NCBI RefSeq assembly: GCF_900115545.1
Contig: NZ_FOWV01000002.1
Coordinates: forward strand, 248,001-312,000
Origin: Ralstonia sp. NFACC01
GTDB taxonomy: Bacteria; Pseudomonadota; Gammaproteobacteria; Burkholderiales; Burkholderiaceae
DNA: 64,000 nucleotides
Reading direction: 5' to 3'
How positions within the stretch are numbered: position 1 is the first letter of the stretch; the number at the start of each line of letters is the position of its first letter. The position numbers were made by a program, and so were the translations under genes. Shown one piece after another: positions 1 to 17,758 of this stretch. The notes under the pieces are model-generated. The model did not search any database. It worked only from the letters and a program-made list of their open reading frames with translations, and was not told the DNA's origin.

Positions 1-250
1 CCTGCGGCACGTAGGCGATGCCGCGCGCCACGCGCTGGAACGAGGGCAGGGCCGTCAGTTCCTGGCCGTCGATCGACACGCTGCCCGAGCGCGTCGGAAG
101 AATGCCCATCAGGGTTTTGAACAGCGTGGTCTTGCCCATGCCGTTGCGGCCCATCACGGCCACGATCTCCTGCGGTGCCACCTGCAGGTTGAGGGCATGG
201 AGCACCTGGCTCTGGCCGTATCCGGAAACGAGGTCGGTCACGTTGAACAT
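1..250 (-). CDS. urtE: Urea ABC transporter ATP-binding subunit UrtE (N-terminal part only)
   Basis: This is the second ATPase of the urea ABC transporter and powers urea import from the cytoplasmic face. Only the first 83 or so residues lie in the window; the gene runs off the left edge. The protein opens MFNVTDLVSGYG and carries a Walker A motif, GRNGMGKTT, near residue 35. The Q-loop region ends at the edge, so the signature motif and Walker B are not visible. The start lies 15 bases after the urtD stop, in the same operon. UrtE is preferred over the related branched-chain amino-acid subunit LivF because of the complete urtABCD order upstream. Confidence 0.93.
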   Translation of the reverse strand, partial: MFNVTDLVSGYGQSQVLHALNLQVAPQEIVAVMGRNGMGKTTLFKTLMGILPTRSGSVSIDGQELTALPSFQRVARGIAYVPQ

Positions 251-265
251 GTGCGGCTCCGGGGC

Positions 266-1027
266 TCAATGGCCCAGATAGACTTCAATGACTTTCGGGT
301 CGGCCTGCACCGCATCCATGCTGCCTTCGGCCAGCACCTTGCCCTGGTGCAGCACGGTCACGCGGTGGGCGATGCTCTTGACGAACTCCATGTCGTGCTC
401 GATGACGAGCACCGACCGCCCCTGGCTGATGCGGCCGAGCAGTTCGGCTGTCTTCTCGCGTTCCGACACGCTCATGCCGGCCACGGGTTCATCGAGCATC
501 ACGAGTTCCGGCTCCTGCATGAGCAGCATGCCGATCTCAAGCCATTGCTTTTGCCCGTGCGAGAGCAGGTCCGCCTGCTGGTGCAGCAGCTCGTTCAGGA
601 AGATGTCGCGGGCCACCGCTTCTACGCGTTCCACCACGTCGGGCGTGCGGCGGAAGGCGAGTGCGCCGAGCACCTTGCGCCCGCGCGGGAACGACATCTC
701 CAGGTTCTCGAACACCGTCAGGTTTTCGTAGATGGAGGGGGTCTGGAACTTGCGGCCGACGCCCGAGCGCACGATGTCGTGCTCGCGCATTTTCGTCAGC
801 TCCAGGTTGTTGAAGCGGATGCTGCCGGAGGTGGCGCGCGTCTTTCCGCAGATCAGGTCCAGCACCGTGGTCTTGCCCGCGCCGTTGGGGCCGATCACCA
901 CGCGCACTTCGTTGCGGTCGACATACAGGTTCAGGCTGTCCACCGCCTTGAAGCCATCGAACGACACCGTCAGGTCTTCGATCGCCAGCACGGGCTTGGG
1001 CATTTCCACGCCGATCGGTTGGGTCAT
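266..1027 (-). CDS. urtD: Urea ABC transporter ATP-binding subunit UrtD
   Basis: This 253-residue ABC ATPase partners UrtE in driving urea uptake. Visible motifs are Walker A GPNGAGKTT, an ABC signature region reading LSHGQKQWLEIG (the LSGGQ position is altered to LSHGQ, as is usual in UrtD), Walker B LVMLDEPVAGMS and a switch His in VIEHDMEFV. The start is the ATG giving MTQPIGVEM, because the open frame upstream lies inside urtC. The gene sits 14 bases downstream of urtC and 15 bases upstream of urtE, so co-transcription is very likely. In the branched-chain amino-acid system the equivalent subunit is LivG. Confidence 0.95.
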   Translation of the reverse strand: MTQPIGVEMPKPVLAIEDLTVSFDGFKAVDSLNLYVDRNEVRVVIGPNGAGKTTVLDLICGKTRATSGSIRFNNLELTKMREHDIVRSGVGRKFQTPSIYENLTVFENLEMSFPRGRKVLGALAFRRTPDVVERVEAVARDIFLNELLHQQADLLSHGQKQWLEIGMLLMQEPELVMLDEPVAGMSVSEREKTAELLGRISQGRSVLVIEHDMEFVKSIAHRVTVLHQGKVLAEGSMDAVQADPKVIEVYLGH

Positions 1028-1041
1028 GGTGGGCTCCTCGT

Positions 1042-2178
1042 TTAGCCTTGCGCGGTGGCGCTGGGCGCCGGTTTTGCCGCCGTGCGGCGGCCTTGCAGCA
1101 GCCGTGCGATCCATTTGCGGCCGTGGCTGTCGTACAGGCCGGCCAGGCCGTTGGGGAAGTACATGACCACTGCAATGAACAGGCCGCCCATCAGGAACAG
1201 CCACAGCTGCGGGAAGGACTCAGAGAAATACGTCTTGCCGAAATTGACGAGCAGCGTGCCGTACACCGCGCCCAGCAGCGAGAGGCGACCGCCCACCGCG
1301 GCATAGATGACCATCTCGATCGACGGCACGATGCCGACGAACGACGGCGACATGAAGCCCACCTGCAGCGTGAACATCGCCCCGCCGATGGCCGACATGG
1401 CCGCCGCCACGCAGAACACGAACACCTTGAAGCTGGCGACGTCGTAACCGGAAAAGCGCACGCGCTCTTCCTTGTCGCGCATCGCCATCAGCAGGCGGCC
1501 GAGTTTGGAACGCAGGATGAAGCGGCCGAGCACGATGCAGCCCACCAGCAGGCCGGCGGTGACGAAGTACAGGATCAGCTTGGCGGAGTCGGTGCGGATG
1601 TCCCAGCCGAGCAGCGTCTTCAGGTCGGTGATGCCGTTGACGCCGCCCGTCCAGCCCTGCTGCCCGATGATGAGGATCGACAGGATCGCCGCGATGGCCT
1701 GCGTGACGATGGAGAAATACACGTCGCCCACGCGGCGCTTGAACATGGCGATGCCGATCAGCAGTGCAAGCAGCGTGGGCACCAACACCACCGCGACCAC
1801 CGCGAAGCCGAAGTGGCGGAACGGCTCCCAGAACAACGGCAGGGCGGTCAGCTGGTTCCAGTCCATGAAGTCGGGAATGCCGGGCGTGGACTGGATCTTG
1901 GTGCTGACGGGGTCGGATGCTTCGAGCTTGAGGAACATCGCCATGCAATAGCCGCCGAGCCCGAAGAACACGCCCTGGCCCAGGCTCAGGATGCCGCCGT
2001 AGCCCCAGCACAGCACCAGGCCGACGGCCACGAAGGCGTAGCTGAGGTACTTGCCGATCAGGTTCAGGCGGAATACATCAAACGCCAGCGGCATGACGAC
2101 GAAGATGACGGCGCAGAGTACGGCCAGGCCGAGCCAGTCGCGCTTGCGCTCTAGCCATGAATGAAGCGTGGGGTTCAT
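1042..2178 (-). CDS. urtC: Urea ABC transporter permease UrtC
   Basis: This 378-residue inner-membrane permease is one of the two channel subunits for urea (LivM family). The chain has roughly ten hydrophobic segments. A conserved segment reading LCWGYGGILSLGQGVFFGLGGY, near residues 56-77, is diagnostic of LivM/UrtC permeases. The short C-terminal tail is basic (GRKWIARLLQGRR) and faces the cytoplasm. It starts 10 bases after urtB stops, so it lies in the same transcript. Its length is in the usual range for UrtC and nothing appears disrupted. Confidence 0.95.
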   Translation of the reverse strand: MNPTLHSWLERKRDWLGLAVLCAVIFVVMPLAFDVFRLNLIGKYLSYAFVAVGLVLCWGYGGILSLGQGVFFGLGGYCMAMFLKLEASDPVSTKIQSTPGIPDFMDWNQLTALPLFWEPFRHFGFAVVAVVLVPTLLALLIGIAMFKRRVGDVYFSIVTQAIAAILSILIIGQQGWTGGVNGITDLKTLLGWDIRTDSAKLILYFVTAGLLVGCIVLGRFILRSKLGRLLMAMRDKEERVRFSGYDVASFKVFVFCVAAAMSAIGGAMFTLQVGFMSPSFVGIVPSIEMVIYAAVGGRLSLLGAVYGTLLVNFGKTYFSESFPQLWLFLMGGLFIAVVMYFPNGLAGLYDSHGRKWIARLLQGRRTAAKPAPSATAQG

Positions 2179-2188
2179 GTCGGACTCC

Positions 2189-3106
2189 TTATTTGCGGAC
2201 CTTGACCGAGAACAGCCCCTGGGGCCGCATCATCAGGATCAGGATCACGGCCGAGAGCGTCAGCACCTTGGCCATCGAGCCTGTGAGGAAGAACTCGGTG
2301 GTCGATTGCGTCTGGGCGATGGTGAAGGCCGACGCGATGGTGCCCAGCAGGCTTTGCGCGCCACCGAACACGACCACCAGGAAGGTGTCGACGATGTACA
2401 GCGACCCCGATGTCGGGCCGGTCGAACCGATGGTGGTGAACGCTGCGCCCGCCACCCCGGCCACGCCACAACCGAGTGCGAACGTCATGCGGTCCACGCG
2501 CCGCGTGTCAATGCCGACCGCACCGCTCATCACGCGGTTCTGCACCGTGGCACGCACCTGCAGGCCCCAGCGGGAGCGGAACAGCAGGAGGAACAGCGCA
2601 CCGGTCAGCAGCGTGGTCAGGGCCATCACGAACAGGCCGTTGATCGGGATATCGATGCCGCCGCCTGGCGAGAACGATCCCATCAGCCAGTCCGGCAGCG
2701 TGGGGCTGACCTCCTTGGCGCCAAAGATGGAGCGGAAAGCCTGCTGCATGGCCAGGCTCAGGCCCCAGGTGGCGAGCAGCGTGTCGAGCGGGCGGTTGTA
2801 GAGCCGCGAGATCATCAACCGCTCGACTACGTAACCGATAGCCGCTGCCAGGACGAACGACAGCACCACGGCCGCGAAGAAGTAGTAAGGCTGCAGTGCC
2901 GGCGCGTAGCTGGCGGTGAGCGTCGACAGCAGGTACGTGGTGTAGGCGCCGATGGTGAGGAACTCGCCATGGGCCATGTTGATCACGCCCATCTGCCCAA
3001 AGATGATGGCCAGGCCCAGTGCCATCAGCAGCAGCACGCAGAAGAACGACAGGCCGTTGAAGCCCTGCATGGCGAAGATCGCCCCGAATTCCGACAACGA
3101 GGTCAT
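2189..3106 (-). CDS. urtB: Urea ABC transporter permease UrtB
   Basis: This 305-residue inner-membrane permease of the LivH family pairs with UrtC. Typical segments are AIIFGQMGVINMAHGEF near residue 35 and the cytoplasmic loop REYNR-like RLYNRPLDTLLATWGLS. The ATG encoding MTSLSEFG is chosen because a GGAG motif lies about 7 bases upstream; the open frame extends 18 codons further without such a site. UrtB proteins in some bacteria carry a long N-terminal extension, which this one lacks. The gap to urtA is 87 bases, larger than elsewhere in the operon, consistent with higher expression of the binding protein. Confidence 0.94.
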   Translation of the reverse strand: MTSLSEFGAIFAMQGFNGLSFFCVLLLMALGLAIIFGQMGVINMAHGEFLTIGAYTTYLLSTLTASYAPALQPYYFFAAVVLSFVLAAAIGYVVERLMISRLYNRPLDTLLATWGLSLAMQQAFRSIFGAKEVSPTLPDWLMGSFSPGGGIDIPINGLFVMALTTLLTGALFLLLFRSRWGLQVRATVQNRVMSGAVGIDTRRVDRMTFALGCGVAGVAGAAFTTIGSTGPTSGSLYIVDTFLVVVFGGAQSLLGTIASAFTIAQTQSTTEFFLTGSMAKVLTLSAVILILMMRPQGLFSVKVRK

Positions 3107-3193
3107 GGCGGCTCCACGAAGACGATGGATGCGGTGGGAAGCGGTCCGTCCGGCTTGCAAACCGTGCTGCGGCCGGACCGCGTCTGCGGCGGG

Positions 3194-4429
3194 TTACTGG
3201 TAACCCTTCGGGAACGGATTCGGTTCGATCAGACCCGATTCGTAGACGACCTTGAACTGGCCGTCCGTCTGCACTTGCCCGATGCGCGTCTTGCTCCACA
3301 GGTGGTGGTTGGCGTGCACCTTCACGTAGCCTTCCGGCGCGGTGTTCAGCTCGATGCCGGGCGAGGCCGCGACCACCTTGTCGACGTCAAAACTGCCGGC
3401 CTTTTCCACCGCCGCCTTCCACAGCCACGGGCCGAGGTAAGCCGCCTGCGTGACGTCGCCGATGACAGCCTTCGCGCCGTACTTGGCCTTGAAGGCCTCG
3501 ACAAACTTCTTGTTGTTGGGGTTGTCCAGGCTCTGGAAGTACTTCATGGAGGCGTAGAAGCCGGCCATGTTCTCGCCGCCGATGCCGAGCAGCTCATCTT
3601 CCGTGACGGACAGCGTCAGCAGTGTCTGCTTGTCGGCGGTCACGCCCGCGGCCTTCATCTGCTTGTAGAAGGCCACGTTGGAACCACCCACCACGGCAGC
3701 GAAAATCACGTCGGGCTTCTTCAGCTTCATCTTGTTGATCAGCGAGCCGAACTGCGTGTTGCCGAGCGGGTAGTACTCCTCGCCGACCACCTCGCCGTGC
3801 AGCACGTTTTCGATGTGCTTGCGCGCGATCTTCATCGACGTGCGCGGCCAGATGTAGTCGGAGCCGACCAGATAGAACGTCTTGGCCTTCTTCTCCTTGG
3901 CCACCCAATCCAGCCCGGCCAGGATCTGCTGCGTGGCTTCCTGCCCGGTGTAGATCACGTTCTTGGATTGTTCCAGCCCCTCGTAGAACGTGGGGTAGTA
4001 CAGCAGCCCGTTGTCTTTCTCGAACACTGGCAGCACGGCCTTGCGCGACGCCGAGGTCCAGCAGCCGAACACGGTGGCGACACGGTCAGCTTCGAGCAGC
4101 TTCTTTGCCTTCTCGGCAAAGGTCGGCCAGTCCGATGCGCCATCCTCCTGGATGATCTTGATCTTGCGGCCCAGCACGCCGCCCGCGGCGTTGATCTGGT
4201 CGATGGCCAGGCGCTCGGCCTGGATCGAGCCTGTCTCGCTGATCGCCATGGTGCCGGTAGCCGAATGCAGTTGGCCCACGGTGACCTCGGTGTCGGTCAC
4301 GGCAAGCTTGGTGGTGTTGACCTTGGCGGTCGGGTGCGACTGGGCGAGCGTGGCAAGCGGCGTCGCCAGCAGTGGCATGACGGTAAGACACAAGGCGAGG
4401 CGCCGAAGGCGCGAGGGGTGGCGTGACAT
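3194..4429 (-). CDS. urtA: Urea ABC transporter substrate-binding protein UrtA
   Basis: This 411-residue periplasmic binding protein captures urea for UrtBCDE. It begins MSRHPSRLRRLALCL, followed by a hydrophobic stretch and an ALA-type cleavage site at LATLAQ near residue 28, so it is Sec-exported and not a lipoprotein. The mature part contains LHSATGTMAISE, typical of type I periplasmic binding proteins of the UrtA family, and ends NPFPKGYQ, a UrtA-like C terminus. The ATG has a GGGAG motif 8 bases upstream. It is the first gene of the operon; the promoter should lie in the 263 bases shared with the divergent permease-kinase gene. Confidence 0.96.
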   Translation of the reverse strand: MSRHPSRLRRLALCLTVMPLLATPLATLAQSHPTAKVNTTKLAVTDTEVTVGQLHSATGTMAISETGSIQAERLAIDQINAAGGVLGRKIKIIQEDGASDWPTFAEKAKKLLEADRVATVFGCWTSASRKAVLPVFEKDNGLLYYPTFYEGLEQSKNVIYTGQEATQQILAGLDWVAKEKKAKTFYLVGSDYIWPRTSMKIARKHIENVLHGEVVGEEYYPLGNTQFGSLINKMKLKKPDVIFAAVVGGSNVAFYKQMKAAGVTADKQTLLTLSVTEDELLGIGGENMAGFYASMKYFQSLDNPNNKKFVEAFKAKYGAKAVIGDVTQAAYLGPWLWKAAVEKAGSFDVDKVVAASPGIELNTAPEGYVKVHANHHLWSKTRIGQVQTDGQFKVVYESGLIEPNPFPKGYQ

Positions 4430-4692
4430 CGTGGTTTCTCCCGGTTGCGGATGGTGGTCGGTGTGAACAGGCATGGAGGCAAGCCTAGGCGGGGGCCTCG
4501 ATTGCCGGAATACGTCAACCGACGTACAGCGCGGCCGCATTGCGCGGCGCAGCCATCCGCAATCAAAAACACGACGACATCACAAGGGTGAACCGGCCGA
4601 GTGCGAGGGCGGAACGGAACTTGCATCGCCCGCCGCGCCTTCTCGCCTAGAGCATGAAGCTCAGGCGCGGTTCACCGAAACGGGGAGCGTTC
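4430..4692. promoter_or_regulatory. Divergent control region between urtA and the permease-kinase gene
   Basis: This is the 263-base region between the urtA start on the minus strand and the probable GTG start of the sensor gene on the plus strand. It must hold the promoters for both units. I see no clear sigma-70 consensus and no perfect palindrome. It is GC-rich, apart from a short A-rich run near 4561-4580. A GGGGAG ribosome-binding motif for the plus-strand gene lies at 4682-4687. The divergent arrangement suggests that the sensor pair controls urea transport. Confidence 0.5.
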
Positions 4693-7600
4693 GTGCACCA
4701 ATCCGGCACCCAGCGCATCGTCAAGATCCGTCGTGACTACAACACGTGGGTCGCCGACGAGACGCTGGAAGACTACGCATTGCGCTATACGCCGCGCGGA
4801 TTCCGCAAATGGTCGGAATTCCGCGTGGCGAATACCGCGCTGGGAGCCACGTCGTTCCTGGCGCTGGAGGCCATTGGCGGCTCGCTCGCCATCAACTACG
4901 GCTTTACCAACGCGTTCTGGGCGATCGTGGTGGTGAGCGTGCTGATCTTCCTGACCGGCCTGCCGATCAGCTATTACGCAGCGCGCTTCGGCGTCGACAT
5001 GGATTTGCTCACGCGCGGTGCCGGTTTCGGCTACATCGGCTCGACGGTCACCTCGCTGGTCTACGCCACCTTCACGTTCATCTTCCTGGCGCTGGAGGCG
5101 GCCATCATGGCGCTGGCCGTGCAGCTTTACGTCGGGTTGCCGCTGCCCATCGCCTATGTGCTCTGTTCGCTGGTGATCATCCCGCTGGTGACGCACGGAG
5201 TCACGGCCATCAACAAGCTGCAGAGCTGGACCCAGGTGCTGTGGCTGGTGTTGCTGGTGCTGCCCTACGCTGCGGTGCTGCTGCGCAATCCGCGCGCCTT
5301 TGCCGACTGGCCGAGCTTTGGCGGCCTGTCGGAATCGGGCCGCGATTTCAACCTGCTGGCCTTTGGCGCCGGCTGCACCGTGGCCTTTGCGCTGATCGTG
5401 CAGATTGGCGAGCAGGTCGACTACCTGCGCTTTCTGCCCGAGAAGACGCGCGCCAACCGCGGCAAGTGGTGGCTGGCCCTGCTGGCGGCGGGGCCCGGTT
5501 GGGTGGTGCCGGGCGCGCTGAAGATGCTGGGCGGCTCCTTTCTGGTCTTCCTCGCCGTTCAGCACGAGGTGGGCACGGCGCGCGCCGTGGAGCCCACGCA
5601 GATGTACCTGGTGGCCTATCAGTACGTGTTCGGCTCGCCTGCATTGGCGATGGCGGCCATGGCGTTGTTCGTGGTGGTGTCGCAGATCAAGATCAACGTC
5701 ACCAACGCCTACGCCGGTTCACTGGCGTGGTCCAACTTCTTTGCGCGCCTCACGCACAGTCATCCGGGGCGTGTTGTCTGGCTGGTCTTCAACGTGCTCA
5801 TCGCGCTGCTGCTGATGGAGCTGGGCGTGTTCGAGGCACTGAACGAGGTACTGGCGCTGTATGCCAACGTGGCCATCGCATGGATCGGCGCGCTCGTAGC
5901 GGATCTTGTCATCAACAAGCCCTTGGGATACAGCCCCGCACACATCGAGTTCAAGCGCGCCTACCTGTACGACGTCAATCCGGTTGGCGTGGGCGCCATG
6001 CTGATCGCCTCGGTGGTCGCGACGCTCGCTCACCTCGGGTTGTTCGGTGCCGTGACGGAAGCGCTATCGCCGTTCGTCGCATTGGGCGTGGCGTTCCTCT
6101 GCGCGCCGCTCATCGCCGTGGCCACGCACGGGCGGTTCTACCTCGCGCGCAAGGTGCACGCGCCCGCCGACGCCGAACATGCGCACGCCGGCGCCATGCG
6201 CTGCGTGATCTGCGAGAACGTGTTCGAGCGGGAGGACATGGCGCAGTGCCCCGCCTACGCTGGCAGCATCTGCTCGCTATGTTGCTCGCTGGATGCGCGC
6301 TGCGGCGACGCGTGTAAGCCGCACGGCAGACTGTCTGCGCAAATCGCGCAGGCTTGGCGACATTGGTTTCCAAACACTGAACTGCCGCGACTGCACGTGC
6401 GCGTGGCGCAGTACGCCGCCGTGCTGCTGATCGTGCTGGGCTTGCTGGCAGGCGTGTTGACGCTGATCTACTACCAGACCGCCGTCACCCTGAGCGCGGA
6501 CCAATCGCCGTTGCAATTGCTGGCGCGCGGTTACATCAAGGCGTTTTTCGCGCTGGCGCTGGTCGGCTGCGTGGGCGCCTGGTGGCTGGTGCTGGCCAAG
6601 GAAAGCCGCAAGGTCGCGCAGGAAGAGTCCAACCGCCAGACCATGCTGCTGATGCGCGAGATCGAAGCGCACCGCAAGACCGACGCCATGCTGCAGCAGG
6701 CCAAGCAAGCCGCCGAGTCTGCCAACCGGGCCAAGAGCCGCTACGTGACGGGCTTGAGCCATGAACTGCGCACGCCGCTCAACAGCATCCTCGGCTATGC
6801 GCAACTGCTGATGCGCGATGCGTCGATTCCACCTGCGCGCCGCGAGGGCCTTGCCACCATATTCCGCAGTGGCGAGCACCTCTTGGCCCTGGTCGACGGG
6901 CTGCTAGACGTTGCGCGCATCGAGGCCGGCAAGCTGCAACTCGACGTGAGCCAGGTGGCGTTTCCTGCGTTCCTCACGCAGATCGAAGCGATGATGGAAC
7001 CGCATGCCTCGGAAAAAGGACTGGCCTTCCGCATGGAGCATGTGGGCCGCATTCCCGATGCGGTGCGCATGGACGAGAAGCGCGTGCGCCAGATCCTGAT
7101 CAATCTGCTGGGCAACGCGGTGCGCTTTACGGACAGCGGTACGGTGTCGCTGCGTGTGGCCTACGCGCGTGAGCTGGCGACCTTCGAGATTCTCGATACC
7201 GGCATCGGCATTGCCTCGGATGAACTGGAGCGCATCTTCCTGCCGTTCGAGCGGGGCGCCGCAGCGCACGCGCAGGACAACGGCGCTGGCCTCGGTTTGA
7301 CCATCTGCCGCATGCTCACCACGCTGATGGGCGGCCAGCTGAGCGTGGACAGTGTGCCCGGCGAGGGCACGCGCTTTACCGTGCGGTTGTTCCTGCCGGA
7401 GGTGCGCGAGCCCCGCGCGGTCGACCGCATCCGTCATGTCAGCGGCTATCGCGGTGCGCGGCGGACCGTGCTGGTGGTGGATGACCAACGCGAGCAGCGC
7501 CGTATCGTGGTGGGCGCGCTCGCGCCGCTGGGTTTCACGCTCGTCGAAGCCGCCAGCGGGCCCGAGGCGATGCGCCAGCTCGGCACCTTGCCGGTCGACC

Positions 7601-8091
7601 TGATCGTGATGGATGTCTCGATGCCATCGATGGACGGCTTCGAGGCCAGCCGGCTGATCCGCAAGCAGGCACTCAGTGTGGCGCCGATCCTGGTGTTGTC
7701 GGCCAATGCGTTTGCCGGTGACCGTGCACGCGGTGCCGCCGCCGGCTGCGACGACTACCTTGCCAAGCCTGTCCACCTGCCGCATCTGCTCGACAAAGTG
7801 GGCGAGCTGCTCAACCTCGAATGGATCGTCGACAGCGAAGCGGCTGAGGAAGCGCCGCCGCCAGCACGCTCGCATGCGCCGCTGCCGGCAGAGCTGGTCG
7901 CACAGTTGCGGCCGCTGCTCGAGATCGGCTACATCCGCGGGCTCATCGAATTGCTGGATGAAGCCGAACATCGCGATCCTGATCTTGCCGGCGTGCTGCA
8001 ACCTGTGCGTTCGGCCGCGCGGCGATTCCGATTGACGGAACTGGATATGTTGCTCAAAGGAGCCCCTTCAGATGAACACAGCGTGGATTGA
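4693..8091 (+). CDS. NCS1-family permease fused to a cysteine-rich linker, histidine kinase and receiver domain
   Basis: This protein of about 1132 residues joins a purine/cytosine-type NCS1 permease to a hybrid sensor kinase. Residues about 30-490 resemble a full transporter, with roughly 12 membrane spans and the NCS1-like entry WSEFRVANTALGATSF. Residues about 503-543 hold a Cys cluster (CVIC, CSLCC, CGDAC) that looks metal-binding. Two more membrane spans follow, then a coiled coil and the kinase: H-box SHELRTPLNS with His near 690, N-box LINLLGNAVRFTD, and G boxes DTGIGIA and GAGLGLT. The receiver near 926-1045 has its acceptor Asp near 974, in LIVMDVSMPS. The GTG start is preferred over an ATG 39 bases upstream because GGGGAG sits 5 bases before it. 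The end overlaps the response regulator by 20 bases. The probable role is sensing a urea- or purine-related solute; whether it also transports is unknown. Confidence 0.88.
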   Translation: MHQSGTQRIVKIRRDYNTWVADETLEDYALRYTPRGFRKWSEFRVANTALGATSFLALEAIGGSLAINYGFTNAFWAIVVVSVLIFLTGLPISYYAARFGVDMDLLTRGAGFGYIGSTVTSLVYATFTFIFLALEAAIMALAVQLYVGLPLPIAYVLCSLVIIPLVTHGVTAINKLQSWTQVLWLVLLVLPYAAVLLRNPRAFADWPSFGGLSESGRDFNLLAFGAGCTVAFALIVQIGEQVDYLRFLPEKTRANRGKWWLALLAAGPGWVVPGALKMLGGSFLVFLAVQHEVGTARAVEPTQMYLVAYQYVFGSPALAMAAMALFVVVSQIKINVTNAYAGSLAWSNFFARLTHSHPGRVVWLVFNVLIALLLMELGVFEALNEVLALYANVAIAWIGALVADLVINKPLGYSPAHIEFKRAYLYDVNPVGVGAMLIASVVATLAHLGLFGAVTEALSPFVALGVAFLCAPLIAVATHGRFYLARKVHAPADAEHAHAGAMRCVICENVFEREDMAQCPAYAGSICSLCCSLDARCGDACKPHGRLSAQIAQAWRHWFPNTELPRLHVRVAQYAAVLLIVLGLLAGVLTLIYYQTAVTLSADQSPLQLLARGYIKAFFALALVGCVGAWWLVLAKESRKVAQEESNRQTMLLMREIEAHRKTDAMLQQAKQAAESANRAKSRYVTGLSHELRTPLNSILGYAQLLMRDASIPPARREGLATIFRSGEHLLALVDGLLDVARIEAGKLQLDVSQVAFPAFLTQIEAMMEPHASEKGLAFRMEHVGRIPDAVRMDEKRVRQILINLLGNAVRFTDSGTVSLRVAYARELATFEILDTGIGIASDELERIFLPFERGAAAHAQDNGAGLGLTICRMLTTLMGGQLSVDSVPGEGTRFTVRLFLPEVREPRAVDRIRHVSGYRGARRTVLVVDDQREQRRIVVGALAPLGFTLVEAASGPEAMRQLGTLPVDLIVMDVSMPSMDGFEASRLIRKQALSVAPILVLSANAFAGDRARGAAAGCDDYLAKPVHLPHLLDKVGELLNLEWIVDSEAAEEAPPPARSHAPLPAELVAQLRPLLEIGYIRGLIELLDEAEHRDPDLAGVLQPVRSAARRFRLTELDMLLKGAPSDEHSVD

Positions 8092-9058
8092 CCATGGCGG
8101 CGCTGCGGCGCTGCATATGCCATCGGCCTCGCAGGCGATCGGTGCGGCCGCTGCGGGCTCCGGCGTCGTGCTCATCGTTGACGATACGCCGGACAATCTG
8201 GCGCTGCTGTCCGATGCGCTCGACGCGGTCGGCTACACCGTCCTGGTGGCGCTGGACGGCCCTAGCGCGCTGGATCGCATCGAGCGTCTGACCCCCGACA
8301 TCATCCTGCTGGACGCCGTCATGCCCGGCATCAGCGGCTTCGAGACCTGCGAGCACATCAAGGCCAATGCGCGCCACGCGCAGATTCCCGTGATCTTCAT
8401 GACGGGACTGACGGAGAGCGAGCATGTTGTGCGCGGCTTCCGTGCCGGCGGAATCGACTACATCACCAAGCCGATCCGCCCGGAAGAGGTGCTGGCGCGT
8501 GTTGCCGCGCATCTGGAGCGCGCCCGTGCGCACCGGCAGGCAGACGAAATCGTTGGCCTGGGCGGCCGCGCGGCGCTGGTGGCCGATGTGCATGGCGAGA
8601 TCCACTGGCGCAGTTCGCGGGTCGCGCCGTTGTTTGCGCGCTTTTATCCGGACCACGGCGACATGCAGCGGCTGCCCTCGGTATTGCAGCAGTGGCTGGC
8701 GCAGAGCGTGGGACCCGTTGGCGCACCCGAAGCCGGCCGGATGGCGGAGGACGGCGAGGGCGTGCGGCTGGTTGCAAGGCTGGCTGGGCCGGCGCCGCAC
8801 AGCGCGTGGGTCATCCAGTTGGAAGAGCACGACGACCGCAAGGTGAGCGATCGCCTCTGCGCAAGGTTTCGTCTGACCGCGCGCGAGGCGGAGGTGCTGC
8901 TGTGGATTTCACGCGGCAAGACCAATCGCGACATCGGCGACATCCTCGGTATGCGCCCGCGTACGGTCAACAAGCACCTCGAGCACATCTTCGAGAAGCT
9001 TGGTGTGGAAACACGCGTGGCTGCTGCCGCGCTGGCTTTGCAGGCTCAGCCGGGTTGA
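8072..9058 (+). CDS. Two-component response regulator with receiver and LuxR-type HTH
   Basis: This 328-residue response regulator is presumed to be the partner of the overlapping permease-kinase. The receiver spans residues about 32-150, with acidic pocket VDD at 36-38, acceptor Asp81 in IILLDAVMPG and the conserved Lys in YITKPIRPEE. A middle segment of about 100 residues has no fold I recognise. A LuxR/FixJ helix-turn-helix at about 265-325 contains LTAREAEVLLWISRGKTNRDIG. The gene starts 20 bases inside the kinase gene, so translation is probably coupled. By position it is the best candidate regulator of urtABCDE and perhaps of linked urease genes outside the window. That link is inferred. 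Confidence 0.9.
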   Translation: MNTAWIDHGGAAALHMPSASQAIGAAAAGSGVVLIVDDTPDNLALLSDALDAVGYTVLVALDGPSALDRIERLTPDIILLDAVMPGISGFETCEHIKANARHAQIPVIFMTGLTESEHVVRGFRAGGIDYITKPIRPEEVLARVAAHLERARAHRQADEIVGLGGRAALVADVHGEIHWRSSRVAPLFARFYPDHGDMQRLPSVLQQWLAQSVGPVGAPEAGRMAEDGEGVRLVARLAGPAPHSAWVIQLEEHDDRKVSDRLCARFRLTAREAEVLLWISRGKTNRDIGDILGMRPRTVNKHLEHIFEKLGVETRVAAAALALQAQPG

Positions 9059-16747: not shown

Positions 16748-17758
16748 ATGACACTAGCGTCAGTGGCATCGGTATCGGTCAGCGGACCGAGCTGGTCCGG
16801 CGATTTCCTGCGCACGCTGCAGGCCCCCGCAAGCGGTGTGAGGCGGGTGGGCGGCGATGCATGGTTGCGGGTCGAGCCAGGTCGCGCCGCTGCGCCGCGT
16901 GCCGACGAAATCGTCGTCAATGATGTGATGTTCGGGGTCGATGACGTTGATGTCGCGCATCGCCGGGCAGTGCGTGCCGGCGCGGCCGATCTGGCACCGC
17001 CGCACTGGGGCGTTCTGCCCACGCCGCATGGGGAGCGCCCTGTGCGCATGGCACGCGTGGGCGGTATCGGCCATGTCACGCACACGTTTGTCGAGCGCGA
17101 CCCTGTCGCCCGCGATGCCGCCTTCGATGGAAGGCAGGGGCTTGACCACCTCGCGCTGTGCCTGCCTTGCGGAACCATGGGCGCAACGGTTGCGCGTTAC
17201 GAAGCGGGCTTTGGCCTGCATGTCACGCAAACCGAGCACATCCAGACGCGCAGTCTCGGCATGATCAACACGGTACTGCAGAACGCCAGCGGCAGCGTGA
17301 AGCTCGTGCTCTCTGCGCCCACACCGACCAGCCAGACGACGCAACTGCACCGCTTTGTCGACGTGCACGGCGGCGCGGGCATTCAGCACCTGGCGCTGCG
17401 TGTGCCCGCATTGTTGGCGCATAGCCTTGCACTCAAACGCCACGAGGTGAACTTTGCGGGCTCCATGCCTGAAGTGTTCGACGCCATGCTGGCGCGGATC
17501 GGGCACTGCCCGGTCCCGCGCGACGCTGCCTTGGCGCTTGGCATCATGGCCGACCGCGATGCCGATGGTCTCTTGTTGCAGTCATTTCTGGCGCCGTCCC
17601 GAACGGCCGAGCCAGTGTTCTTTTTCGAACTGATCGAGCGTCAGGGCGCACGCGGATTTGGCGCGGCAAACATCCGCGCCCTGTTCGAGGCGGTGGAGCG
17701 TGTGCAAGGTGCGCCCGTGGTGGCGGCTGAGTCGCAACGTCAGCCGGCCACGGTCTAG
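16748..17758 (+). CDS. 4-hydroxyphenylpyruvate dioxygenase-like VOC-family enzyme
   Basis: This 336-residue vicinal-oxygen-chelate protein resembles HPPD and hydroxymandelate synthase, Fe(II) dioxygenases acting on aromatic alpha-keto acids. The expected facial triad is present: His134 in GLDHLAL, His214 in GIQHLAL and Glu294 in FFFELIERQG, with spacing of 80 and 80 residues, close to true HPPD. The C-terminal GFGAANIRALFEAVERVQ also matches HPPD. The N-terminal domain is short and diverged. The ATG has AGGAG 6 bases upstream. No homogentisate genes are adjacent. With the NMT1-fold neighbour it may form a small aromatic-compound module; substrate unknown. Confidence 0.8.
   Translation: MTLASVASVSVSGPSWSGDFLRTLQAPASGVRRVGGDAWLRVEPGRAAAPRADEIVVNDVMFGVDDVDVAHRRAVRAGAADLAPPHWGVLPTPHGERPVRMARVGGIGHVTHTFVERDPVARDAAFDGRQGLDHLALCLPCGTMGATVARYEAGFGLHVTQTEHIQTRSLGMINTVLQNASGSVKLVLSAPTPTSQTTQLHRFVDVHGGAGIQHLALRVPALLAHSLALKRHEVNFAGSMPEVFDAMLARIGHCPVPRDAALALGIMADRDADGLLLQSFLAPSRTAEPVFFFELIERQGARGFGAANIRALFEAVERVQGAPVVAAESQRQPATV

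Follow-up and report, generated by a model that had tools for sequence, protein, structure and literature searches.

The window analysed here is a 64,000-nucleotide stretch of the genome of Ralstonia sp. NFACC01 (contig NZ_FOWV01000002.1, positions 248,001 to 312,000 of the forward strand). Near its beginning lies a gene encoding a sensor kinase, in which an NCS1-like permease, an eight-cysteine (Cys8) module and a hybrid histidine kinase form one chain. It is followed by an overlapping gene for a LuxR-type response regulator and is divergent from a urtABCDE-type operon. The sensor kinase most likely detects short-chain amides such as formamide and acetamide and activates the facing import and digestion operon, a reading to which we assign a probability of about 0.68. 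The features on the kinase side of the locus are listed below in window coordinates.

4693..8091, + strand: NCS1-like permease / Cys8 module / hybrid histidine kinase; GTG at 4693 is the preferred start, and the open reading frame opens with ATG at 4654
4744..6138, + strand: NCS1-like permease (sensor) domain, residues 31-495
6202..6315, + strand: Cys8 module, residues 517-554
6388..6633, + strand: two extra predicted helices on the kinase side of Cys8, residues 579-613 and 620-660
6730..6930, + strand: HisKA domain, H-box His703 (Pfam scan)
7072..7395, + strand: HATPase_c domain (Pfam scan)
7468..7800, + strand: kinase receiver domain, Asp987 (Pfam scan)
8072..9058, + strand: LuxR-type response regulator with a receiver (Asp81) and a LuxR/GerE DNA-binding domain, recognition helix RTVNKHLEH
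4511..4526, strand not applicable: predicted regulator operator TACGTCAACCGACGTA, one mismatch to the consensus TACGTCANNTGACGTA
4610..4624, + strand: CGGAACGGAACTTGC, an imperfect -24/-12 box of the sigma-54-like kind, upstream of the kinase gene

The fusion kinase and the operon it faces

The kinase has a HisKA domain with its histidine, a HATPase_c domain and a receiver with its aspartate, which is the make-up of a hybrid histidine kinase, and the regulator combines a receiver with a GerE domain as LuxR/NarL-type regulators do. The initial annotation had described a permease-derived sensor joined to a hybrid kinase in one protein and overlapping a LuxR-type regulator, and this architecture was confirmed. 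The fusion is already recorded in automatic JGI names ('signal transduction histidine kinase/purine-cytosine permease-like protein'). A database search found at least 7,999 protein clusters of relatives, and the 120 matches listed were 64-100% identical over the query region, with proteins of Paraburkholderia xenovorans at 72% over the sensor region. All eight cysteines of the Cys8 module were invariant in an alignment of 48 sequences, and the module may bind zinc. It occupies the place between transporter and kinase where SLC5-STAC kinases have the STAC domain; Pfam scans, whose library may hold no STAC model, detected no STAC domain there.

Comparison of the predicted structure with solved folds showed that the sensor domain has a LeuT-type 12-helix fold, nearest to CodB and Mhp1 over residues 38-495 and not of the SLC5 type. 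PF02133 gave no match to it even at E<=10, and its score with the NCBIfam cytosine permease model was 28.9 bits, far from the cut-off of 326. Since both family profiles missed the domain, it is called NCS1-like here and is not filed as an NCS1 member. When solved structures were searched by sequence, neither the permease by itself nor a 48-row profile found a transporter match, and fold comparison alone succeeded. A zinc-finger match in the profile search was disregarded (E 4.2).

The facing operon runs off the window edge, and its last genes lie outside the window.

3194..4429, - strand: urtA-type substrate-binding protein, amide-type by context; the open reading frame opens at 4540, and the start at about 4429 was inferred from upstream alignment
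2189..3160, - strand: urtB-type permease (TIGR03409, 388.2 bits)
1042..2178, - strand: urtC-type permease (TIGR03408, 445.2 bits)
266..1204, - strand: urtD-type ABC ATPase, named by position and ABC_tran/BCA_ABC_TP_C
1..250, - strand: urtE-type ATPase, part, running past the window edge
G000:C11:246513-247667, outside the window, after urtE: AmiE, aliphatic amidase (711.8 bits, cut-off 427)
G000:C11:245305-246486, outside the window, after AmiE: FmdA, formamidase (564.3 bits, cut-off 500)

UrtA (TIGR03407, about 537 bits; 536.9-537.6), UrtB, UrtC and UrtE passed the TIGR urea models, which were applied to those four proteins, UrtD excepted. A urea-only reading was abandoned once AmiE and FmdA turned up after urtE. 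UreC was found nowhere on the same contig. A second UrtA in the same genome (601.3 bits) is followed by urtBCDE and urease subunits (UreC confirmed), and the two UrtA proteins are 43% identical. Because AmiE and FmdA are encoded in the kinase-facing operon and a separate UrtA sits with urease, the facing operon is, judged by its gene content, a short-chain amide operon. The earlier proposal that the divergent urt operon is the target of the kinase stands as likely, but its identification as a urea operon is not supported.

The TIGR03407 model passed urease-linked and most formamidase-linked UrtA proteins and so cannot tell a urea UrtA from an amide UrtA. In an order-wide sample of 299 evenly drawn genomes, the scores were 485-540 bits for UrtA near both kinase and FmdA (n=32) and 568-604 bits for UrtA near the kinase and UreC without FmdA (n=8). 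A threshold of about 550 bits would split these 40 kinase-linked proteins. The window system suggests that some UrtABCDE systems annotated as urea importers are amide importers. In Pseudomonas veronii Yu15, amiE, fmdA, fmdB and urtABCDE lie together and formamide import has been suggested; both acetamide and formamide support growth of this strain, and its locus is reported to lack amiC and amiR (PMC13209695).

Relatives also occur on plasmids; 531 records of the plasmid collection contain one, and 342 of these are from Klebsiella. On the one Klebsiella plasmid examined, an IncF conjugative plasmid of K. pneumoniae (CP024508.1; L183:5861-16216), sensor and regulator face urtABCDE-amiF, and the UrtA is 76% identical to the window amide-type UrtA and 44% identical to the urease-linked one. 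A UrtABC/AmiF cluster has been named a high-affinity urea transporter (PMC13060141). Since the plasmid UrtA is nearer to the amide type, that cluster, if it is the same as the one on the plasmid, may be an amide importer. On a Paracoccus plasmid (L185:5851-11662), a kinase of the family faces fmdA and an AmiS/UreI channel and has separate regulators after it, and the palindrome described below is missing upstream. Elsewhere in the window, a gene for an SsuA-like binding protein is followed at 16748-17758 by one for a 4-hydroxyphenylpyruvate dioxygenase-like protein, whose score falls short of the family cut-off.

Gene neighbourhoods, kinase clades and free permeases

In the order-wide sample, 52 kinase genes were found in 49 of the 299 genomes. 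Within 20 kb of them, UrtA was present near 40, FmdA near 34 and UreC near 27, and 45 of the 52 had at least one of these markers, while about 0.03 marker genes are expected near a random place by a rough estimate. The proposed tie of the fusion to nitrogen genes is borne out by this sample, and the pattern that would have spoken against it, with the fusion mostly lying away from such genes, was not seen. Formamidase scored over the cut-off in 43 genomes; the kinase was present in 35 of these, leaving eight without it, as compared to 14 of the other 256 genomes (Fisher p 1e-26, with no phylogenetic correction). Both the linkage and the co-occurrence counts ignore relatedness among the genomes.

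Gene order was tabulated, and labels were assigned by hand, for the best 80 of at least 586 confirmed loci, a set biased to the closest relatives. Amide-type neighbours accompanied 48 of the 81 kinases at these loci (two of them also with urease), urease or urea-type urt genes 25, neither 6, and 2 could not be labelled. Two labels were borderline: L034, with ureG at the flank edge, was labelled amide, and L073, with urtD/E at the flank edge, was labelled urea. In a class-wide sample, the kinase was present in 10 of 184 genomes (11 genes); five of these genes, all different from the window kinase gene (L099, L100, L101, L103 and L104), have no FmdA, urease or urt gene in the fetched flanks, and the contig of L010 was too short to judge. 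AAA ATPase genes follow amiE at seven Pseudomonadaceae loci and one other (L016, L018, L019, L021, L022, L026, L029 and L098), and one likewise follows the amidase in Arthrobacter. Kinase relatives also occur in Cyanobacteriota (L058 and L091); L058 has AmiE, a third UrtA type (39-40% identical to both reference UrtA proteins) and a receiver-MarR protein in place of the LuxR-type regulator.

A tree of 141 kinases (FastTree, local support values only) split with support 100 into a clade of 81 rows, which includes the window kinase, and a clade of 60 rows. The former, termed the amide clade, comprised 65 rows labelled amide, 7 both, 2 urea and 7 none, and the latter, termed the urease clade, 35 urea, 11 both, 11 none, 2 unknown and 1 amide. 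On the tree, the amide label changed 11 times as compared to 47.1 times after shuffling, and the urea label 10 times as compared to 32.8 times, differences to which near-copies contribute. All three genomes of the order sample with two kinases (G356, G404 and G468) have one kinase per clade, one by FmdA and the other by UreC. At the Curvibacter locus L054, each clade is likewise represented by one kinase, and marker genes adjoin the amide-clade one only. Among the two-match genomes of later class and phylum scans, G542 was the one examined. The urea assignment made in the initial annotation is not supported for the window operon; a separate clade of the kinases does adjoin urease genes.

Sister permeases free of any kinase were reached via the plasmid search, two of the stretches being without annotation. 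In Acinetobacter johnsonii, a free permease 41% identical to the window permease, with four of the eight module cysteines, lies in a urease cluster. A Klebsiella record holds another, a candidate urea transporter (L186:6956-8563, annotated as cytosine permease), after ureDABCE-ureG, and at L193 one follows ureABC, ureE and ureG. Free permeases are also divergent from fmdA in Moraxella osloensis and ahead of an aliphatic amidase in Arthrobacter sp. U41; one in Streptomyces has no telling neighbours. At L192:6040-15242, the regulator (helix RTVNKHLEH) and kinase face a free permease in the place held elsewhere by urtABCDE, followed by FmdA (79%), FmdB (38%) and AmiE (83%). Since the L192 free permease has an eight-cysteine module, Cys8 is not confined to the fusion. 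Free forms are rare in the sampled genomes: a class scan gave 22 matches in 370 genomes with two frames shorter than 650 aa, those at L192 and L193, and a phylum scan gave 71 matches in 397 genomes with none shorter than 890 aa. In an outgroup tree of 41 hand-picked rows, which included seven free permeases as the outgroup but not that of L192 and was built by a quick method, the urease branch was nested within the amide types; amide linkage hence looks ancestral.

These data bear on whether the permease half instead binds urea, with the divergent urt operon importing urea. Such a sensor would agree with the passing of the TIGR urea models by UrtA, UrtB and UrtC, with the sister kinases and free permeases in urease clusters, and with the induction of the fmd cluster of M. 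methylotrophus by both formamide and urea (PMC10781810). However, AmiE and FmdA are part of the facing operon, a distinct UrtA accompanies urease elsewhere in this genome, the window kinase belongs to the amide clade, and UrtA scores split by neighbour. A urea sensor is therefore considered unlikely here, and urea may be an additional ligand of an amide sensor.

The regulator and its predicted operator

The palindrome TACGTCANNTGACGTA emerged on alignment of the sequences upstream at 15 loci, six from Burkholderiaceae and nine from Pseudomonas/Stutzerimonas. With two mismatches or fewer, 56 of the 81 amide-clade regions have it, as do 4 of the 57 urease-clade regions that were long enough to score (three were not). 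The 15 discovery loci are part of the counted set, which weakens this count as support for an amide-responsive operator. The palindrome was present in 0 of 405 amide-clade shuffles and in 1 of 360 in a second shuffle set. The window palindrome is the sole site with one mismatch or fewer in the 5.37 Mb genome. At two mismatches or fewer, five places (the window and four others) were found as compared to nine in a reversed-pattern control, so that a regulon beyond the window locus cannot be claimed. Four loci outside the counted set were checked, and in two of them, L183 and L192, a copy with a single mismatch is present.

A regulator homologue was located within 1.5 kb downstream of 123 of the 141 kinases, and contig ends cut some of the rest. 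The recognition helix of the regulator covaries with the operator type. Of 50 amide-clade loci with the helix RTVNKHLEH or a near form, 46 have the palindrome. Loci with RTVDKHLEQ or a near form have it in 0 of 14 cases and a variant, TACGCAANNTTGCGTA (O2), in 7 of 14, and loci with (A/M)TVKKHLER or a near form have it in 0 of 24 and another variant, TACGCCN4GGCGTA (O3), in 10 of 24, both variants having been read off the same loci used for counting. O3 is weak, occurring in 5 of 120 shuffles and also matching 32 of 72 loci with an RTVNKH-type helix.

The box CGGAACGGAACTTGC and its counterparts in the two clades were scored with a consensus and weights that we take to be those of sigma-54. 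In the amide clade, a box was found in the kinase direction in 53 of 81 regions and in the opposite direction in 13 of 81 (shuffles 10.6%). In the urease clade, the counts on the two strands were 45 and 31 of 57 (shuffles 15.8%); since both are high, a direction of the box is evident in the amide clade only.

Ligand pocket, signalling and known systems

In CodB, two aromatic residues (W108/F204) sandwich the base (PMC9379551). CodB and the sensor were matched by profile-profile alignment (probability 87.9), which is not a residue-level structural superposition. By this alignment, Trp108 corresponds to Phe144 (Phe in 130 and Leu in 11 of 141 rows) and Phe204 to Leu247, so that the aromatic sandwich is not retained as a pair. 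Glu148, which we take to be the position of Mhp1 Gln121 from a presumed spacing to the Mhp1 tryptophan, was invariant in 141 of 141 rows. Gln250, Glu253, Gln254, Lys346, Asn348, Thr350, Asn351 and Tyr353 were likewise invariant in both clades, and T350/N351 align with the CodB Na2 residues T278/T279. All these residues are retained in the Acinetobacter free permease, and in three further kinases compared, Thr350 is replaced in that of S. medicae. An invariant polar pocket fits a small polar ligand and proves nothing. Positions that differ between the clades lie partly near the aligned pocket (66, 70, 245, 249 and 251), many being distant (583, 412, 381 and 154), and their comparison yielded no simple ligand switch.

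A permease half that has kept the nucleobase or hydantoin recognition of known NCS1 proteins, with an indirect linkage to amides, would accord with its nearest solved folds, one cytosine and one hydantoin transporter. Nevertheless, the CodB sandwich pair is replaced by Phe144/Leu247, and no nucleobase or hydantoin gene was present among the commonest annotated neighbour clusters, rarer neighbours being only partly annotated. Such sensing was set aside for want of supporting gene context and appears highly improbable.

Alternatively, the kinase could report transport turnover or the intracellular nitrogen state instead of the binding of a specific amide. The invariant pocket residues common to both clades, their retention for the most part in a free and presumably transporting sister, and the sigma-54-like box ahead of the kinase are in keeping with this. 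On the other hand, the clades follow gene context and the operators vary with the recognition helix, which points to separate ligand-specific systems, and the transporter half of CbrA transports histidine without needing its kinase (PMC7096432). We thus regard a flux sensor as quite unlikely.

The domain architecture, the predicted fold, the linkage to nitrogen genes, the division into clades and the conservation and covariation of the operator were obtained by computation; amide binding, signal passage, phosphotransfer and activation are what we infer, as described below. The permease half would be a receptor for short-chain aliphatic amides, e.g. formamide or acetamide, and possibly still a transporter. 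Ligand binding would alter its conformation, and the Cys8 module and the two extra helices would relay the change to the kinase, which would phosphorylate the regulator encoded by the overlapping gene. The regulator would then bind the TACGTCA-NN-TGACGTA palindrome, which lies ca. 80-100 bp before the start of urtA, and activate the divergent urtABCDE-type importer together with amiE and fmdA. Through the sigma-54-type box, the supply of the kinase would also track nitrogen status. Judging from their gene context, the second-clade relatives would act likewise for urease and urea.

Several observations weigh against an amide-responsive system of this kind. Seven of the 52 kinases in the order sample have no UrtA, FmdA or UreC within 20 kb, and in the class sample the fetched flanks of both kinases of one genome (G120) are free of marker genes. 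In the aligned pocket, the amide and urease clades share the same invariant polar residues, so the presumed ligands are told apart by gene context and not by the pocket. Of 22 urease-clade loci with an RTVNKH-type helix, just 4 have the first palindrome, and the helix is hence not the sole determinant. Outside the counted set, the other two loci checked, the fmdA-linked L185 and L184, which has a urea-type UrtA, are without the palindrome. A P. stutzeri A1501 ntrC mutant exceeded the wild type on formamide and acetamide (PMC8443478), which, if A1501 has the kinase locus, counts against simple NtrC activation. The L192 free permease is nearest to the sensor of the cyanobacterial kinase L091 (63%, BLAST) and is possibly a sensor set free again.

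With about an even chance of being right, the history of the family may be as follows. A subfamily of NCS1-like permeases, marked by a cysteine module at the C-terminal end, would transport urea or small amides. Fusion to a hybrid kinase would have given a large family of transceptors that sensed amides first and were duplicated into amide and urea branches, with regulators and palindromic operators co-diverging so that both could run in one cell.

The main text of PMC13022988 contains neither 'NCS1' nor 'Mhp1', that of PMC13209695 does not contain 'histidine kinase', and the review PMC10781810 does not contain 'two-component'. No paper describing an NCS1-like permease-kinase fusion was found in the literature searched, which left out most subscription papers. 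CodB and Mhp1 share the fold of the sensor over residues 38-495, but the sensor has no Pfam match, does not retain the aromatic pair by alignment, and has Cys8, the helices and the kinase in addition. CbrA/CbrB of Pseudomonas likewise combine a LeuT-fold transporter and a histidine kinase on one chain for nutrient sensing (PMC13022988, PMC7096432); CbrA differs in having SLC5 and STAC domains and in binding and transporting histidine, whereas the window kinase has an NCS1-like fold and Cys8. CrbS/CrbR resemble the present pair in having a hybrid kinase, a LuxR-type regulator and an imperfect inverted repeat upstream of small-metabolite genes, but the sensor is of the SLC5/STAC type and the genes are those for acetate (PMC5715377). 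A nitrogen-compound transporter domain is fused to a kinase in Kuenenia stuttgartiensis (PMC5764959), the fold being that of an ammonium transporter and the compound ammonium. The fmdCABDEF cluster of Methylophilus and amiE-fmdA-fmdB-urtABCDE of P. veronii Yu15 are the same kind of target operon, but in the published accounts a gene of the cluster itself is named as the positive regulator (PMC10781810; PMC13209695, where it is fmdB). To the SLC5 (CbrA, CrbS) and ammonium-transporter folds that the cited papers describe in transporter-kinase fusions, the present system adds an NCS1-like fold that is unrecognised by Pfam for all its thousands of clusters. It also offers a candidate regulator and operator for amiE-fmdA-fmdB-urtABCDE, and its paired amide and urease branches are a natural experiment in the turning of a transporter fold into a receptor and in the separation of paralogous two-component systems from each other.

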